Shown here: one piece after another, positions 288-19,791 of the stretch
Layout of the letters: every line of letters starts with the position of its first letter
How positions within the stretch are numbered: position 1 is the stretch's first letter
NCBI GenBank assembly: GCA_937928685.1
Contig: CALGJU010000142.1
Span: forward strand, 1-37,827
Length of the DNA stretch: 37,827 nucleotides
Direction of reading: 5' to 3'
From: an uncultured Granulosicoccaceae bacterium
GTDB taxonomy: Bacteria > Pseudomonadota > Gammaproteobacteria > Granulosicoccales > Granulosicoccaceae
Position numbers and translations under genes: made by a program
The notes under the pieces: model-generated
What the model was told of the DNA's origin: nothing
The model's database searches: none
What the model saw: only the letters and a program-made list of their open reading frames with translations

Positions 288-3200
288 ATGATTGAAACCA
301 TAGACACTATATGGCTCACCATAGCCACATTTCTCGTCTTACTGATGCAAGCCGGTTTTCTTCTTCTGGAAGGTGGGCGGGTTCGATCCAAAAATTCAAT
401 CAATGTAGCGCAAAAAAACGCCAGTGACCTAGCCGTGTCGTGGGTGTGCTTTATGAGCTTTGGCTTTCTCATCATGTTTGGTGCCTATGCACCAATGACA
501 GAAGTGAGACAGGCGATTGATCAGTCGCCAAGCCCGATGGAATTTTTATATCAACTTGCCTTTTGTGCCACAGCTGCAAGTATCATCTCGGGCGCGGTGG
601 CGGAACGGATTACTTTCCGCGCTTACCTGGCATTGACTGTAGTGGTATCCGGCTTCATCTACCCTCTGGTTGGTCGAATGATCTGGGGCGATATGTTCAA
701 CTATGAAGTCACTGCATGGCTTTACGAGCGCGGCTTCAGAGATTTCGCGGGCTCAACAGTAGTACACGGTACCGGCGCATGGGTAGGTCTTACCGCGCTG
801 TTAATGCTTGGCTCGCGCACCGGACGTTTTGATAAAAACGGTAAACCCACCGTTATGCAGGGCCACAGCTCTGTCTTGTCACTGGCTGGAATTCTACTTC
901 TGCTTTTCTGTTGGCTGGGCTTTAATGGTGGATCGATCTCACCTTCTAATCCGCTGTTACAGCGTGTGCTTCTCAACACGCTGACAGCCGCTGCATTCGG
1001 GTCGTTAGCCGGTATGTTCATAGGCGCCTGGATTGATAAAGGAGTATTCAACCCAACTCGAATATGCAACGGCATTATCGGTGGTCTTGTCGCCTGTACA
1101 GCCGCTGTGAATGTTATGTCAACGATTGAAGCTATTTTTATTGGCGCTTTCGGTGGTGTGATTGCAACCTACTGCGGCGAACTTCTTCTGGTGAAGTGCA
1201 AACTTGATGATCCGATAGACGTCGTAGCAACCCATGGTATCGCCGGGGTATTCGGAACCTTATCTGTTGCTTTTGTCGGACCAGTGTCAGCACTGCCTAC
1301 CGGCTCAAGACTGAGCCAGTTTGGTGTGCAGCTTGGCGGAGTTATCCTGGTTTTCACCTGCGTATGTCTTGCTGCATATCTGGCGCTGACACTTATCGGG
1401 AAATTCACCAGCCTCAGAGTCTCTGTGCAGGATGAGAAGATTGGCCTGAATTATACCGAACACGGTGAATCTATTGGATCAGAGCGCCTGCAAAGAGCAC
1501 TGGAATCTCACATCACGGGCCAGGTGGGCTTTGGTGCACCGCTCGACGTAGCAAGTAATGACGAAAACTCCGAGCTAGCAGCCTCGATGAATGCACTGCT
1601 CACAAAGCACGAAGAAGCAAAGAAACAGATACGCCTTTCGGAGAAGCGATTCCAGCACTTTGCCCAGACATCATCAAACTGGCTGTGGGAGACAAACCTC
1701 GACTTAGAGTTTACGTTCTTCAGTGCAAACTCCAAGGACAACAATCACAACGAACTTGCGAACGTGCTTACCAGGCCATTTCTGGATATATTAAAAATAG
1801 AAGAACAAGACGAACAGCACGTACGACGTAATGTGGCAGAGCGCAAAGCCACCGGGGCGTTTGAAGCCCGCCTGCAATTCAACGATCAACCGGGTGCAGC
1901 ACTGGTTGAAGTTCGAGGCGTACCCTATTACACACAACGCGGCGATTTTGAAGGTTACCGCGGAACCATCAGCGACATTACTCCTCGTAAAGCCGCAGAG
2001 AATCGCGCTGTATTCTTATCTATGCACGATGATCTAACCGGACTGCTCAATCGTAGAGCGTTAAATGACAGACTACCGGGAATACTGGCTGCCTCTGATC
2101 AAAGTGGACTGACTGCTGTTATTGCAGGCGTTGATCTGGATGGCTTTAAAGCAGTCAATGACAACTACGGGCACAATGCTGGTGACGCCCTGCTGAAAGA
2201 AGTAGCAGAACGATTAGAAGGTGTTCGCAGACCAGATGATCTGGTGTTTCGAACTGGTGGAGATGAGTTTGTTGTTGTTCTTACCGGCTTTGATCCTGAA
2301 CATGCAAGGCAGCAGGCTGAAACGATTTGCAATCGGATCATCGCCGAAGTCAGCAAGCCATTTATGATTGACACCAACTCCACACAGGTCAGTGCGAGTA
2401 TAGGCATCGCGCTGCATCCGGAGCACAGCAACATCGGTGACAATTTAGCCCGACTTGCCGACCTGGCTCTCTATGCCGCAAAAGCCCAGGGAAAATCACA
2501 GGTAATTACTTTCGACCCATCGATGGATGCCGAAGCGCAACGCAGGTTTGCCCTTGAGCGGGATCTGCGCATCGCGATAGATGAACAACAGTTTTACCTG
2601 ATGTACCAGCCACTGATAGATACAAAAACCGAACAGCTCCTGGGCTTTGAAGCGCTGATTCGCTGGTCCCACCCTGAACACGGTGAGATACCACCGGGGG
2701 ATTTCATCTTCGTTGCAGAGCAGCTGCATATTATGGATGAGATTGGTGAATATGTATTGCGAGAGGCATGTCAGTTTGCCGCTCACTGGACAAGCAAAAC
2801 AGGCGAGGCCCCGACTATCGCGGTCAACGTCTCACCAGATCAGTTACGCGGCACAGAGTTCACAGCATTGGTACAAACAGTGTTAACTGAAACAGGTCTT
2901 TCTCCAGCCCGCCTGGAACTCGAAATCACAGAAGATGTACTGGTCAGTGACTTCGACCTGATGAAAGACAAGTTACTCGCACTGCGTGATCTGGGGGTGG
3001 CAATAGCCGTTGATGACTTCGGCAGCGGCCAAACCTCCTTAAGGTACCTTAACCACCTGCCCGTTTCGAAGTTAAAAATTGATCGATCATTTATTCGACA
3101 CCTAAGTGGCGACCCCAAGGCAGCGGACATCACTCGCTCCATTGTTGATCTCGGGCACAAACTAGGCGTCTCCGTACTGGCAGAAGGGGTTGAGGAAAAT

Positions 3201-3338
3201 AATCAACTACAAATACTGAAGAACTGGGACTGCGACCAGGTACAAGGATTCCTGTTTTCAAAGCCTGTGTACGCAGATGCGGTAGATGCATTGATACAAT
3301 ATGATCAGATCGAACAGAAAAAGGCGGTGGGCGAGTAA
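288..3338 (+). CDS. Ammonium transporter (Amt/MEP/Rh) fused to PAS, GGDEF and EAL domains; putative ammonium-sensing c-di-GMP enzyme
   Basis: 1016-aa ORF. N-terminal Amt-like TM region (GAVAERITF, RDFAGSTVVHG, LFCWLGFNGGS, THGIAGVFGTL), PAS-like region (SEKRFQHFAQTSSNWLWETN), GGDEF (RTGGDEFVVVL, motif at 2256-2270), EAL (GFEALIRW at about 2649; AVDDFGSGQTSL). Confidence 0.95.
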   Translation: MIETIDTIWLTIATFLVLLMQAGFLLLEGGRVRSKNSINVAQKNASDLAVSWVCFMSFGFLIMFGAYAPMTEVRQAIDQSPSPMEFLYQLAFCATAASIISGAVAERITFRAYLALTVVVSGFIYPLVGRMIWGDMFNYEVTAWLYERGFRDFAGSTVVHGTGAWVGLTALLMLGSRTGRFDKNGKPTVMQGHSSVLSLAGILLLLFCWLGFNGGSISPSNPLLQRVLLNTLTAAAFGSLAGMFIGAWIDKGVFNPTRICNGIIGGLVACTAAVNVMSTIEAIFIGAFGGVIATYCGELLLVKCKLDDPIDVVATHGIAGVFGTLSVAFVGPVSALPTGSRLSQFGVQLGGVILVFTCVCLAAYLALTLIGKFTSLRVSVQDEKIGLNYTEHGESIGSERLQRALESHITGQVGFGAPLDVASNDENSELAASMNALLTKHEEAKKQIRLSEKRFQHFAQTSSNWLWETNLDLEFTFFSANSKDNNHNELANVLTRPFLDILKIEEQDEQHVRRNVAERKATGAFEARLQFNDQPGAALVEVRGVPYYTQRGDFEGYRGTISDITPRKAAENRAVFLSMHDDLTGLLNRRALNDRLPGILAASDQSGLTAVIAGVDLDGFKAVNDNYGHNAGDALLKEVAERLEGVRRPDDLVFRTGGDEFVVVLTGFDPEHARQQAETICNRIIAEVSKPFMIDTNSTQVSASIGIALHPEHSNIGDNLARLADLALYAAKAQGKSQVITFDPSMDAEAQRRFALERDLRIAIDEQQFYLMYQPLIDTKTEQLLGFEALIRWSHPEHGEIPPGDFIFVAEQLHIMDEIGEYVLREACQFAAHWTSKTGEAPTIAVNVSPDQLRGTEFTALVQTVLTETGLSPARLELEITEDVLVSDFDLMKDKLLALRDLGVAIAVDDFGSGQTSLRYLNHLPVSKLKIDRSFIRHLSGDPKAADITRSIVDLGHKLGVSVLAEGVEENNQLQILKNWDCDQVQGFLFSKPVYADAVDALIQYDQIEQKKAVGE

Positions 3339-3430: not shown

Positions 3431-4486
3431 TTGCGGCCTGAATGTAAGCCGTTTCAGTCTTTATCAGAGCCTACCACTATCAACCCAACCGCAAACAGCA
3501 GTTCTGAGCCCAACAGTGTTAAACCCGGCATTGCCAAGTGTACGCTGGTCGCGCTATCAGGATTTGCAGTCTTCTCGGCTCACGATGCACTGATAAAAGC
3601 ACTTCCGGACTACTCTGTTTTTCAGATTGGTTTCTTTTCAGTGCTGTTTAGCTTTGTTCCGTTCACTCTTTTTTTAGCAGTAAGCCGTAAAGAATTTTCG
3701 CTGCGACCCAAAAATACTAAACTCGTGGCGATCAGATGCGCATCGATTCTGGGATCAATGCTATTTGCGTTTTATGCGTTCCGAAATCTGCCGTTCACAC
3801 AGGTATACGCACTTATCTTCTCAGCTCCGTTGATCATCACTGTGTTGGCTATTCCGATACTGGGTGAGAAAGTAAAACTATTCAGATGGATGGCCATACT
3901 GATCGGATTTTCGGGCGTAATAGTAGTGCTGGGCGCTCAGTTTGGATCACTTGGCAAGGGACACATTGCAGGCATTCTCTGCGCTCTATGCAGCGCAACT
4001 ACGGCCGTGGTAACAAGAAAAATTGGCGCAAGCGAATCGACACTGACTTTAATTGTCTACCCACTATTAATTAACTTATCTGTCTGTGGACTGGCATTAA
4101 CAAAAGTGTACAAACCGATGCCCGGCATCGTACTTCTGGCTATGTGTGCTATTGGACTATTTGCCGTTATGGGTCAGAGCTTACTGATTTACGCGTATCG
4201 CAACGCACCGGCACAGTACATTGCACCGTTCCAGTACAGTCAGATGGTGTGGGCCGTGATCATTGGGATGATATTTTTTTCAGAAATTCCGCAACTCAAC
4301 ATACTGCTCGGAGCGTCTATTATTATTGCCTCGGGCATTCTAATTGTCTGGCGGGAAATGCAAGTTTCCTCCAACAAACCGATACTCAATACACGCAACT
4401 TCCGCTCTGTATCAGGACCACAAGCTTTCAGTCGAGAGTCAGACCGGAATGAGGTCAATGACGACCACCGTCATAAGGCAGAGTAG
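3431..4486 (+). CDS. EamA/DMT-superfamily transporter
   Basis: 351-aa polytopic protein with two EamA-like halves (AFRNLPFTQVYALIFSAPLIITVLAIPILGEKV; YRNAPAQYIAPFQYSQMVWAVIIGMIFFSE). Start appears to be TTG. Confidence 0.88.
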   Translation: MRPECKPFQSLSEPTTINPTANSSSEPNSVKPGIAKCTLVALSGFAVFSAHDALIKALPDYSVFQIGFFSVLFSFVPFTLFLAVSRKEFSLRPKNTKLVAIRCASILGSMLFAFYAFRNLPFTQVYALIFSAPLIITVLAIPILGEKVKLFRWMAILIGFSGVIVVLGAQFGSLGKGHIAGILCALCSATTAVVTRKIGASESTLTLIVYPLLINLSVCGLALTKVYKPMPGIVLLAMCAIGLFAVMGQSLLIYAYRNAPAQYIAPFQYSQMVWAVIIGMIFFSEIPQLNILLGASIIIASGILIVWREMQVSSNKPILNTRNFRSVSGPQAFSRESDRNEVNDDHRHKAE

Positions 4487-4517
4487 GTAAATTGCCAGTC
4501 ATTGGCATGAGACTACT

Positions 4518-5177
4518 TCAGTCGATGACAGCGGTTGTGAACTCAGCCGCCACCTGTGCTGATTCCTGATAAACATCCACCTCTGATTTTCTTGTGCGCT
4601 TAAGAATTTTAAAAGAATGGTCTGCGGTATCTAACCAATGCAACTTGCATTGACTGCCATGTTTTTCTATCTCACCTTGCAGTAATGACGGTTCTGCTAA
4701 TGCATCTCTGGTTCCACTGAGGAACAACATCGGCAGCTTTATATCTTTAAAGTGCTCTGCTCTTTGAGTTCCCGGCTTACCTGCCGGATGCAGTGGAAAT
4801 GAACACAGCACCAACCCGTGACAATCTACCAGGCCCTGTGCAGCAGCATGCGTTGCCATTCGACCACCGAAACTATGACCGCCAACAAACAGTGGCAGAT
4901 CGAGCCGTTCTTCCAGCACTTTGGCCGCCTGTACAATACACTCTACCGATACGTCTTTTGAATCTACCCGGTGGCGAGCCTGTTGCTTAAACGGAAAATT
5001 AAACCGCAGCGTGGCAATGCCAACTGTTGCAAATGCATTGGCCAGCGCTTCCATATGCACGTGTTTATGATCAGCACCCGCGCCATGAGCGAACAAAAGC
5101 GCAGCATGTGCCGAGTCATTTGTCTTTAAGGTTGCTGCTAACGGCCCGTGATTGGTGTCTAAATCGAATTCTGTCAT
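4518..5177 (-). CDS. Alpha/beta hydrolase, Tex30/KANL3-like (dienelactone hydrolase-like)
   Basis: LLFAHGAGADHKH and FVGGHSFGGRMATHAAA (nucleophile-elbow-like GHSFGG), late DTADHSFK. Confidence 0.85.
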   Translation of the reverse strand: MTEFDLDTNHGPLAATLKTNDSAHAALLFAHGAGADHKHVHMEALANAFATVGIATLRFNFPFKQQARHRVDSKDVSVECIVQAAKVLEERLDLPLFVGGHSFGGRMATHAAAQGLVDCHGLVLCSFPLHPAGKPGTQRAEHFKDIKLPMLFLSGTRDALAEPSLLQGEIEKHGSQCKLHWLDTADHSFKILKRTRKSEVDVYQESAQVAAEFTTAVID

Positions 5178-6103
5178 TACTCGCGCACTACTCCGAGTAC
5201 ATTAGGTAGCGCGCCTCTAAGGGCTGAGTAACTATTAAACCCGAGCGACTGACCTACTGTCTCTTGCCAAATATTATCCAGCGCGCGGCGCGTTTCTTCT
5301 GAGGGCATTGCACTGGCTTTGGCTTTACTGGCCACCTTGCCACTTGCCCCACCCGGTGGTAAGCCCCACACCGGATCCCGAATAGCTCGCAACACATGCT
5401 CATCAAACTGGTGGCTGTTGTTTAACATGTATTCGCGGGAACAGTTTTGCACCGCACATTGAAGTGTTGCGTCACTTATATTTAGTTCGAGAAAGTCAGC
5501 CACCACCTCAACAGCTTTATCTGGTGCGAGAAGCATGTCTTCATAACAAAGTACCAATGTGTCTTCACTGTCTATTCTGTGCCACCAGTCGACAAGATGA
5601 TCCCAGTGACGGCCCGCTGCAGATCCCTGCATATACAACGTGGCTGCAAACTCATCGATACTGATTGACCCCTGTTCAAACCACCAGCCTTCAAAGAAAC
5701 GATAGAACGAAGACAACACATTGACAGGATCACGAAACACCGTGATATATCGACCGCCCTTGGGCAGATCCTTATACAACAGATGACACTTGAACGATCT
5801 GAACCGGTAGGGCTGATCCGCGTGCGGATCAATATTCATATCAACCGCTGACTCAAGCCAGGGCACCACACAGCTGATTTCTTCAAAGTCGGTTGAACAC
5901 TCACTTCGCAACTGATGCACAATTTGCTGCATCCATGTGGTGCCGCTTTTTGAATAGGTAGAAATATATACATCATCGGGTCGTGTACGTAGTTCAGACA
6001 CCGCTGCAGCCGCTTCCGGGCTACGGAAGTTTGCCAGTCGCGCGCAAACCTCTTCTATATTGATCGGTCTGGACAACCCGTCAACACGCTCTTTACTGGT
6101 CAA
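5177..6103 (-). CDS. Sulfotransferase domain protein (PAPS-dependent, cytosolic type)
   Basis: YSKSGTTWMQQIVHQL matches the 5'-phosphosulfate-binding loop; FRDPVNVLSSFYRFFEGWW matches the 3'-PB region. Stop overlaps the start of the downstream hydrolase by 1 nt. Confidence 0.9.
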   Translation of the reverse strand: MTSKERVDGLSRPINIEEVCARLANFRSPEAAAAVSELRTRPDDVYISTYSKSGTTWMQQIVHQLRSECSTDFEEISCVVPWLESAVDMNIDPHADQPYRFRSFKCHLLYKDLPKGGRYITVFRDPVNVLSSFYRFFEGWWFEQGSISIDEFAATLYMQGSAAGRHWDHLVDWWHRIDSEDTLVLCYEDMLLAPDKAVEVVADFLELNISDATLQCAVQNCSREYMLNNSHQFDEHVLRAIRDPVWGLPPGGASGKVASKAKASAMPSEETRRALDNIWQETVGQSLGFNSYSALRGALPNVLGVVRE

Positions 6104-17067: not shown

Positions 17068-18207
17068 ATGAAATATAGCGCTGGCCTTCTGCTGTGCCTT
17101 CTACCCATTCACGCGCTGAGCGCTGCAGATGAAATGTCATGCTCGCTGTCCGTACTGAGTGATCTAGGCTGGCGACTCGCAGACAACCGAGCTGACATCG
17201 GCTTTGAAAATACCGATACCTGCAACACCATTGCGATACCACTTTTTAAATATAATTCAACAACAGAAAGCGCCGATAAAATACGCACCAGAAGCGAACA
17301 AACACTAAAATCAGTTACCAGCAAGTGCCTGTTCAACCGTCGCTACCACCGGTCTGTGAAGGGCGTGATTAACAAGCTGTCTGAGAATCTGGAGTTCAAA
17401 TTTCTACCTGTCGGTGACGACCCACGCGACCCGTTCTCACCACCGGAGGGCACCTGGGATACTTCAAGCGCCAAAGGCTACGATATACCCCTGCAAAGCA
17501 TAAGCAACTCGATCCGTTCACTGTACAAAAAACCATTTGTTGCAGAATGCTCCACCGCAGTCCAAATTGCCCAACTCGCCTCACTCACTGAACACTATGC
17601 TGATCAGACGGATAAAATGATTGATACAAGTGAAGTCGGAATTGGCACATGGAATCAGTATGCCAAAACACCTTCCATCGCAGCCAGGCAATCCTTGTTT
17701 ATCAGTCGCCGCGATAGACGTAAAGACGGCTTATCAAAGCTAGCCTCGATTGGACGTTCGGCTTTTTACGGCCAGGTAGGGTATATAAAACCATATAAGA
17801 ACACTTCATTCATCGACTCCTGGGACAACCGCGGTCAAAACTATATGATCGTCGATGTCACGAACAAAGCGGTGGCGGCAATTAAAGCCCGGGAAAAACC
17901 ATTGAAAGAACTGTCCCGTATTTCACGTAGTATCTGGAAAAAATATCGCAAACGTCAAAGTCGCGGTGAAGCAATAGAGAAACTAAAAAAGGAGATGCAA
18001 GAAGAACTGGAAATGGCCGATCCGTTTTTTAACGACATTAAAATTTATGTTCATCCCTTGCGTACTAAAAATTTCGCAGCACACATTGCTCGCCAGTTCG
18101 GCTACAACCCACGCACCCCCTATGTGTTCGAAGTATACGAAGACTTCCAGCCCGGTTATTTTTATAACCGTTTCATTAACCATCGCATGAAGCAGTGCTT
18201 ACAGTAG
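17068..18207 (+). CDS. Secreted hypothetical protein, possible Cys-dependent enzyme fold
   Basis: Signal peptide MKYSAGLLLCLLPIHALSAAD; 379 aa; FVAECSTAVQIAQLASL and later IKPYKNTSFIDSWDNRGQNYMIVDVTN. No family assigned with confidence. Confidence 0.65.
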   Translation: MKYSAGLLLCLLPIHALSAADEMSCSLSVLSDLGWRLADNRADIGFENTDTCNTIAIPLFKYNSTTESADKIRTRSEQTLKSVTSKCLFNRRYHRSVKGVINKLSENLEFKFLPVGDDPRDPFSPPEGTWDTSSAKGYDIPLQSISNSIRSLYKKPFVAECSTAVQIAQLASLTEHYADQTDKMIDTSEVGIGTWNQYAKTPSIAARQSLFISRRDRRKDGLSKLASIGRSAFYGQVGYIKPYKNTSFIDSWDNRGQNYMIVDVTNKAVAAIKAREKPLKELSRISRSIWKKYRKRQSRGEAIEKLKKEMQEELEMADPFFNDIKIYVHPLRTKNFAAHIARQFGYNPRTPYVFEVYEDFQPGYFYNRFINHRMKQCLQ

Positions 18208-18276: not shown

Positions 18277-19791
18277 TTAGTCTTTTGACAAAAGGCCAAG
18301 AAATCTTCGAGTTCCATCTGCCCCGTGAGCATCTAACCAGGCCTGGCCATCCGATAACAACGCCTCAAGGTTAGGGATAGCATCATTCGGATCATTGACG
18401 TTGCCATAGGCAAAGAACTGCGCATTGTTACTTGCACGTTGAGACAGTGAAGCGATAACGGTTTCATCATTATCATCCACAATGCCGTCATTCAGGTGTG
18501 CAGACACCAGGCTCGCGTCACTCGTGTTCCAGGTAATAGAGTAATCGCCCGTCGCCTCGTTCACCAGAGCAAACCCCTCAGCAGTGCCACCACCGTTAAT
18601 ACCGGGAGTAGCGGTCACGTATCGGTATACCGTGCTTGGTGAAATCTGGCGTCGCAATTCACCCTGTGGAAATGCGGCGGTTCTCACTGCCAGGTACAAA
18701 TTTCCAGAGGCTATATTCTGCCTGATAATGGCAATTTGCGCCGCTGACAAAGTGGCTGGTATTGCCCAAGTGGTAGCGTTGATCTTTTCAAACTCAACTC
18801 CGGGGAAGCCATTAGCGCCTTCCGGTCCAATCATCAAGGAAACAAAGGTCGGATCCATTCCGGCGGGCACTGTGACTGTACCCGAGACAGTCCCGTCGAA
18901 GCTCCCATTGGACATGCCAAAACTAAGGCCCGCTACAGCCACTTCAGCAGAGTTGCTACCTGGCAGCGTCTCATCTGAGAAAATATCACCGGCGAAATCA
19001 CCGGTTGCCGAAAGCGATGTACCGGTATCTGTATCACCTGTGTCTGTGCCACCGGTACCGCCTGTGTCTGTGTCACCGGTGCCGCCTGTGTCTGTGCCAC
19101 CGGTGCCACCTGTGTCTGTTCCACCTGTGCCACCTGTATCTGTTCCACCGGTGCCACCTGTATCTGTTCCACCTGTGCCGCCTGTGTCTGTGCCACCGGT
19201 GCCGCCTGTGTCTGTGCCACCGGTGCCACCTGTGTCTGTTCCACCTGTGCCGCCTGTGTCTGTTCCACCGGTGCCGCCTGTGTCTGTTCCACCGGTGCCA
19301 CCTGTGTCTGTTCCACCGGTGCCACCTGTGTCTGTTCCACCGGTACCACCTGTGTCTGTTCCACCAGTGCCACCTGTGTCTGTTCCACCAGTGCCACCTG
19401 TGTCTGTTCCACCGGTACCACCTGTGTCTGTTCCGCCGGTGCCACCTGTGTCTGTTCCACCGGTACCACCTGTGTCTGTGCCACCGGTGCCACCTGTGTC
19501 TGTGCCACCGGTGCCACCTGTGTCTGTGCCACCGGTTCCCGTATCACCGGTTCCGCCCACTGCTGTATCAGCGGCAGTCGAATCATCACCATCATCCAAT
19601 AACAAACCCACAAGCGCTACACCGCCGACGACACCAAGCGCCGTGGTAGCCCCCGAGCCCAGCCCAACCCCTGCAAACCCGCCATTAGTATCACCCTCCT
19701 GCCCGCCTGAACATGAGGTCAACACAACGCTTGAGGCCACCAGAAGTGGGAGAGTTTTTCTTATCTGACTGGAAAGTTTCATACGCTTCAT
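18277..19791 (-). CDS. Lipoprotein with a Gly/Thr/Asp tandem-repeat linker and C-terminal CHRD-like domain
   Basis: Lipobox VVLTSC; Gly-rich hydrophobic segment; (GGTDTGGT)n; C-terminal region with FVSLMIGPEGANGFPGVEF, LSAAQIAIIRQNIASGNLYLAVRTAAFPQGELRRQI, resembling CHRD domains. Confidence 0.85.
   Translation of the reverse strand: MKRMKLSSQIRKTLPLLVASSVVLTSCSGGQEGDTNGGFAGVGLGSGATTALGVVGGVALVGLLLDDGDDSTAADTAVGGTGDTGTGGTDTGGTGGTDTGGTGGTDTGGTGGTDTGGTGGTDTGGTGGTDTGGTGGTDTGGTGGTDTGGTGGTDTGGTGGTDTGGTGGTDTGGTGGTDTGGTGGTDTGGTGGTDTGGTGGTDTGGTGGTDTGGTGGTDTGGTGGTDTGGTGGTDTGGTGDTDTGGTGGTDTGDTDTGTSLSATGDFAGDIFSDETLPGSNSAEVAVAGLSFGMSNGSFDGTVSGTVTVPAGMDPTFVSLMIGPEGANGFPGVEFEKINATTWAIPATLSAAQIAIIRQNIASGNLYLAVRTAAFPQGELRRQISPSTVYRYVTATPGINGGGTAEGFALVNEATGDYSITWNTSDASLVSAHLNDGIVDDNDETVIASLSQRASNNAQFFAYGNVNDPNDAIPNLEALLSDGQAWLDAHGADGTRRFLGLLSKD
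19030..19550 (-). repeat. 24-bp in-frame minisatellite (roughly 20 or more units; GGTDTGGT octapeptide)
   Basis: Repeating ccacctgtgtctgttccaccggtg with synonymous variation (ccg/cca, gtt/gtg). Boundaries are approximate. Confidence 0.95.

Follow-up and report, generated by a model that had tools for sequence, protein, structure and literature searches.

An Amt-PAS-GGDEF-EAL fusion protein of an uncultured Granulosicoccaceae bacterium as a probable ammonium receptor linked to c-di-GMP turnover

Genome annotation usually gives sensory and assimilatory members of the Amt family the same label, 'ammonium transporter'. Ks-Amt5 (PDB 6EU6, whose title includes 'Sensor Amt Protein'), the single published Amt-kinase sensor, comes from Candidatus Kuenenia stuttgartiensis; in it, a sensor-type Amt is fused to a cytoplasmic output, a histidine kinase, through a linker that contains neither HAMP nor PAS. 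Both pore histidines, the selectivity filter and the Phe gate are retained in this protein; ammonium is nevertheless bound and not translocated, at a site made of Q24, E31, N47, D50, T51, T109 and T112, and methylammonium is ignored (PMC5764959). Its pore is blocked by F27, Y30 and F34. A second system, Sd-Amt1, is represented by three PDB entries released in June 2024: 8QJ3 and 8QJ4, titled 'Receptor Sd-Amt1' in the OFF- and ON-state, and 8QPF, which names Shewanella denitrificans. As the Sd-Amt1 chain (644-661 aa) carries a GGDEF domain after the Amt domain, ammonium-receptor Amts with a c-di-GMP output are already known; no paper on Sd-Amt1 or on Amt-GGDEF-EAL proteins was found in the open literature searched. 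Escherichia coli AmtB shares the Amt fold, pore histidines, Phe gate and conserved Asp but is paired with GlnK and has neither an output domain nor the sensor site. PAS-GGDEF-EAL enzymes, for their part, have other sensory inputs, and all those with solved structures are devoid of an Amt domain.

Here we describe a gene from an uncultured Granulosicoccaceae bacterium, located in a window of 37,827 nucleotides (the whole stretch of DNA analysed), in which an Amt is joined in one chain to a cytoplasmic signalling output, as seen from its reading frame and Pfam matches. On the strength of sequence comparison, we estimate at roughly three in four the probability that the product acts as a membrane receptor through which external ammonium sets c-di-GMP turnover locally. 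Relative to known Amt receptors, its new elements are a HAMP-like connector, a PAS domain and an EAL domain.

Domain organization of the fused protein

The first-pass annotation of this DNA had proposed a single-chain Amt-PAS-GGDEF-EAL protein on the basis of short motifs. This architecture is borne out by an intact open reading frame, by the presence of all the motifs quoted, and by Ammonium_transp, GGDEF and EAL matches that are all far above Pfam cut-offs (Table 1). A full-length model of the protein (mean pLDDT 85, with Amt helices mostly above 90) matches, part by part, Amt, GGDEF-EAL and PAS-GGDEF-EAL structures. The PDB entries nearest to the Amt part are 8qj3/8qj4/8qpf and 6eu6, with bit scores of 259 against 8qj3/8qpf and 228 against Ks-Amt5, versus a much weaker 105 against AmtB; identity to the sensor-type Amt of Sd-Amt1 is 38-39% in a fold search. 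The GGDEF-EAL part is 39-40% identical to those of MorA and PA0575.

The PAS module falls below the Pfam cut-off in the window protein (PAS_4, E=0.0055), and its assignment is carried by orthologues and by the predicted fold: PAS models match 12 of the 16 aligned family members, residues 396-580 are predicted to fold like PAS/LOV structures, and the whole model aligns with the PAS-GGDEF-EAL structures PA0861 and DosP. Between Amt and PAS, the model shows two helices, a short one (399-410) and a long one (428-461), joined by a loop. This short connector, missed by the first-pass annotation, occupies the position at which HAMP scores above the Pfam cut-off in alphaproteobacterial homologues (E=3.6e-8 for the linker of L146, 2e-8 for L109); we term it HAMP-like because the Pfam match to HAMP is not significant in the window protein alone. 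Sd-Amt1 differs from the window protein in that just about 60 residues separate its Amt from its GGDEF, not enough to accommodate PAS, and in its lack of EAL.

Table 1. Features of the fused gene in the window, followed by related Amt loci, each designated by its own locus handle.
Feature	Position	Strand	Details
amt-PAS-GGDEF-EAL gene	288-3338	+	one ORF, ATG start, 1016 aa, no internal stop
Amt domain, sensor-type, all-helical membrane domain	312-1472	+	residues 9-395; Pfam Ammonium_transp E=2.1e-92
Ks-Amt5-type ammonium-binding residues	348-590	+	Q21 348-350, E28 369-371, N44 417-419, D47 426-428, S98 579-581, S101 588-590
HAMP-like connector and signalling helix	1473-1670	+	residues 396-461; model and Pfam HAMP in homologues
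PAS domain	1650-1985	+	about residues 455-566; orthologue Pfam matches and predicted fold
GGDEF domain	2022-2498	+	residues 579-737; Pfam 1.5e-41; intact motif 2256-2270
RxxD product-inhibition site (RPDD)	2229-2240	+	residues 648-651, five residues N-terminal of GGDEF; sequence
EAL domain	2559-3266	+	residues 758-993; Pfam 1.4e-70
Amt tandem, L059	4524-9366		
Amt tandem, L062	6825-11998		
Amt tandem, L065	6035-10831		
Amt tandem, L067	5837-10943		
Unfused Amt and partner gene, L213	4075-6052		
Unfused Amt and partner gene, L214	4119-6121		
Unfused Amt and partner gene, L216	3105-5358		
Unfused Amt and partner gene, L217	2781-4996	-	
Unfused Amt, L215	3032-4336	-	
Partner gene, L215	about 2415-3065	-	

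Ammonium site and pore

Alignment places Q21, E28, N44, D47, L48, S98 and S101 of the window protein at the positions of the Ks-Amt5 site. Six of these seven residues are kept or conservatively replaced, the exception being T51, which is L48 here; Sd-Amt1 also has the Q/E/N/D/T/S residues. E. coli AmtB has T, Y, V, T, F, G and V at the same positions, and the other two Amts of this genome do not have the set, Q and D being missing. Within the family, Q21, E28, N44, D47 and S101 are invariant. Among 99 fused proteins, 59 from a wider contig scan were set aside because the scan pattern, MQxGFL[LM]LE, contains two site residues (Q and E). In the remaining sample, found without that motif, 39 of 40 fused proteins have the complete set, versus 2 of 42 stand-alone Amts, an association that is not independent per sequence since the site is inherited within the subfamily. 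An independent phylum sample gave the site in 12/12 readable fused loci, and three unfused Amts of that sample carry it too. The conserved site provides a testable sequence rule for separating sensory from assimilatory Amts.

The canonical pore residues (F92, W133, D152, H160, W209, F212, S216 and H316) are all present, from which a working conduit had initially been read. That reading finds no support: Ks-Amt5 keeps the same residues without translocating, so their retention is no proof of conduction. The alignment to AmtB and Ks-Amt5 that the first-pass annotation had proposed thus confirms the pore residues but, as a conduction test, is uninformative. Methylammonium, which it had also named for a c-di-GMP assay, is likewise a poor choice of ligand, since Ks-Amt5 does not respond to it. 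Some conduction is conceivable, because T51 is replaced by L48 and because, of the bulky side chains plugging Ks-Amt5, F27 alone is kept (Y30 is L27 and F34 is R31 here). Two smaller or different plug residues and a canonical pore could also suit a transceptor, whose Amt part would transport ammonium usefully and signal the flux to GGDEF-EAL. We consider this unlikely, both from the precedent of Ks-Amt5 (PMC5764959) and from the position of AmtB S219, the external recruitment serine: A, T, L, G, N or Q has replaced it in 13 of 24 family members, whereas 40 of 42 stand-alone Amts, and the window protein as well, still have the serine. In the Granulosicoccaceae Amt-GGDEF-EAL proteins where this position drifts, the remaining pore is nearly invariant. 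The drift suggests a relaxed selection on conduction in this lineage.

Enzymatic output and genomic context

Retention of the GGDEF and EAL cores, noted at first reading from motifs, extends to the complete catalytic residues of both domains. The GGDEF domain has its signature, metal-binding Asp and substrate Asn/Asp, and the EAL domain has the full E, N, E, DD, K, E, Q set (E788, N847, E879, D909, D910, K930, E966 and Q986). With both sets intact, a degenerate GGDEF-EAL c-di-GMP receptor of the LapD/FimX kind is ruled out. Of the 24 family members, 23 retain an intact GGDEF, and of the 22 that extend into EAL, 20 have its full catalytic set. The RxxD inhibition site, present in the window protein, is lost in seven relatives. 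Every module is under purifying selection, with a dN/dS of about 0.03-0.05 against the closest orthologue, at 94% identity, and a dS near saturation. Family conservation failed to give the net direction of the enzyme: L057 has lost GGDEF (GPTRF) and kept EAL, whereas L053 and L056 have a degraded EAL and keep GGDEF. The net activity, which the first-pass annotation had left open, is thus not readable from sequence, both sites being intact here and single orthologues having lost either one. By analogy with Sd-Amt1, whose sole enzyme is GGDEF, we lean weakly towards ammonium favouring c-di-GMP synthesis. Besides three PilZ genes, this genome contains at least 15 further genes with GGDEF, indicating that c-di-GMP signalling is in use.

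The gene starts 287 bases from the contig end, where its upstream neighbourhood is cut. The earlier observation that no glnK adjoins it holds within these 287 upstream bases and the fetched flanks: no GlnK was found in those of any fused locus, including orthologues with 2-9 kb upstream, and GlnK is not near Ks-Amt5 either. The sole PII gene found in this genome, in an assembly whose 77% completeness makes absences elsewhere weak, lies on contig C104 and adjoins a separate stand-alone Amt, which is available for uptake. Neighbouring genes (an EamA transporter, a hydrolase and a sulfotransferase) are common only to the closest relatives, past which no conserved operon context was found; the fused gene appears to act alone. 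Elsewhere in the window, two ORFs, 17068-18207 (+, 379 aa) and 18277-19791 (-, 504 aa), have no Pfam family match, and the second is overlapped by an opposite-strand ORF of 394 aa (18584-19768).

Distribution of the sensor-type Amt module and a model for signalling

The survey of Amt-GGDEF-EAL architectures suggested by the first-pass annotation yielded 23 additional fused proteins with the same architecture (Amt 47-94% identical) from 95 genomes of the genus, family and class; in two of them, a contig end falls before or within EAL. The wider contig scan returned 299 relatives. Of these, the best 80 are without exception either oversized fusions or truncated at a contig end, and they span Granulosicoccaceae and Alphaproteobacteria, including Roseibium, Rhizobium, Agrobacterium, Jiella and Stappia. 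Among an even draw of 298 other Pseudomonadota genomes, 13 have a match lying within an open frame longer than 700 codons. The outputs fused to related Amt domains are GGDEF-EAL, a histidine kinase with receivers, or MCP, the last with or without HAMP. The Amt tree, obtained by a quick search and with long branches among stand-alone Amts, requires 8 output changes for 6 labels versus a shuffled mean of 34; several such changes are expected of a sensory input module. In this tree, the window gene belongs to a well-supported group of GGDEF-EAL fusions adjoining kinase fusions, and its Amt groups with Ks-Amt5, Sd-Amt1 and two unfused relatives (SH-aLRT 94). Bit scores agree with the tree in placing the window Amt with Ks-Amt5 and Sd-Amt1, not with assimilatory Amts.

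Ammonium control of c-di-GMP, first proposed from the domain content, is well supported by homology, the nearest structures being Sd-Amt1 and Ks-Amt5 and the residues of the ammonium site being nearly all conserved; the literature searched yielded no biochemistry for the window protein or its orthologues. Following these close homologues, the Amt trimer would select NH4+ through a canonical vestibule and capture it in the Ks-Amt5-type intramembrane site (Q21, E28, N44, D47, S98, S101), without efficient conduction. Site occupancy would then shift the Amt C-terminus and the HAMP-like connector (396-461), and the PAS-coupled helix would rearrange GGDEF and EAL, displacing the balance between c-di-GMP synthesis and hydrolysis, with synthesis feedback-limited by the RxxD site. 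A more ambitious version is a two-way rheostat, where ammonium occupancy toggles one polypeptide between synthesis and hydrolysis via the HAMP-like/PAS relay, within a receptor family that plugs one ammonium-sensing Amt module into enzyme, kinase or chemotaxis outputs. We hold this version to be possible but doubtful.

Two other readings displace the signal or the output. As PAS sits between Amt and the enzymes, the Amt part might be a membrane anchor and the true signal (redox or a small ligand) be read by PAS. This is decidedly improbable: PAS diverges faster than any other module (against the six closest orthologues, 49-86% identity versus 68-94% for Amt) and goes undetected in some fused relatives, whereas the ammonium-site residues Q21, E28, N44, D47 and S101 are invariant in the family. 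C-terminal tails of Amts regulate conduction in trans (plant AMTs, AmtB-GlnK), but a reverse control, with the c-di-GMP domains or PAS gating an ammonium transporter whose uptake is the output, is scarcely plausible given the strong purifying selection on both active sites, unnecessary for a module with a binding role alone, and the kinase and chemotaxis outputs found on the same Amt lineage.

If the protein is a receptor of external ammonium, it would couple this signal directly to c-di-GMP, which switches bacteria between motility and surface attachment, with no PII or two-component relay in between. The Amt-GGDEF-EAL link reaches beyond Granulosicoccaceae to culturable Alphaproteobacteria (Roseibium, Rhizobium, Agrobacterium and Jiella), and the HAMP-like connector suggests a coupling route from a trimeric transporter fold to standard bacterial outputs.

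Other arrangements of related Amts were observed along the way. MCP-fused Amts, some via HAMP, occur in Alphaproteobacteria and in a Rubrivivax MAG (L106, L109, L112, L130 and others of L106-L154) and are candidate ammonium chemoreceptors. At four loci (Table 1), an unfused sensor-type Amt of about 450-480 aa lies in tandem, directly before a longer fusion of the Amt-PAS-histidine kinase-receiver class; it is conceivable that the two Amts form mixed trimers. A gene encoding about 214-299 aa comes almost immediately after each of the five unfused site-bearing Amts whose flanks were read; its product might act as a separate partner, in the cytoplasm, to an ammonium-sensing Amt. The four partner genes compared are homologous and have no Pfam family, and the fifth begins alike. 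In L216, the partner gene (4462-5358, +) carries an extended tandem repeat, in frame, that translates as (DVN)n.
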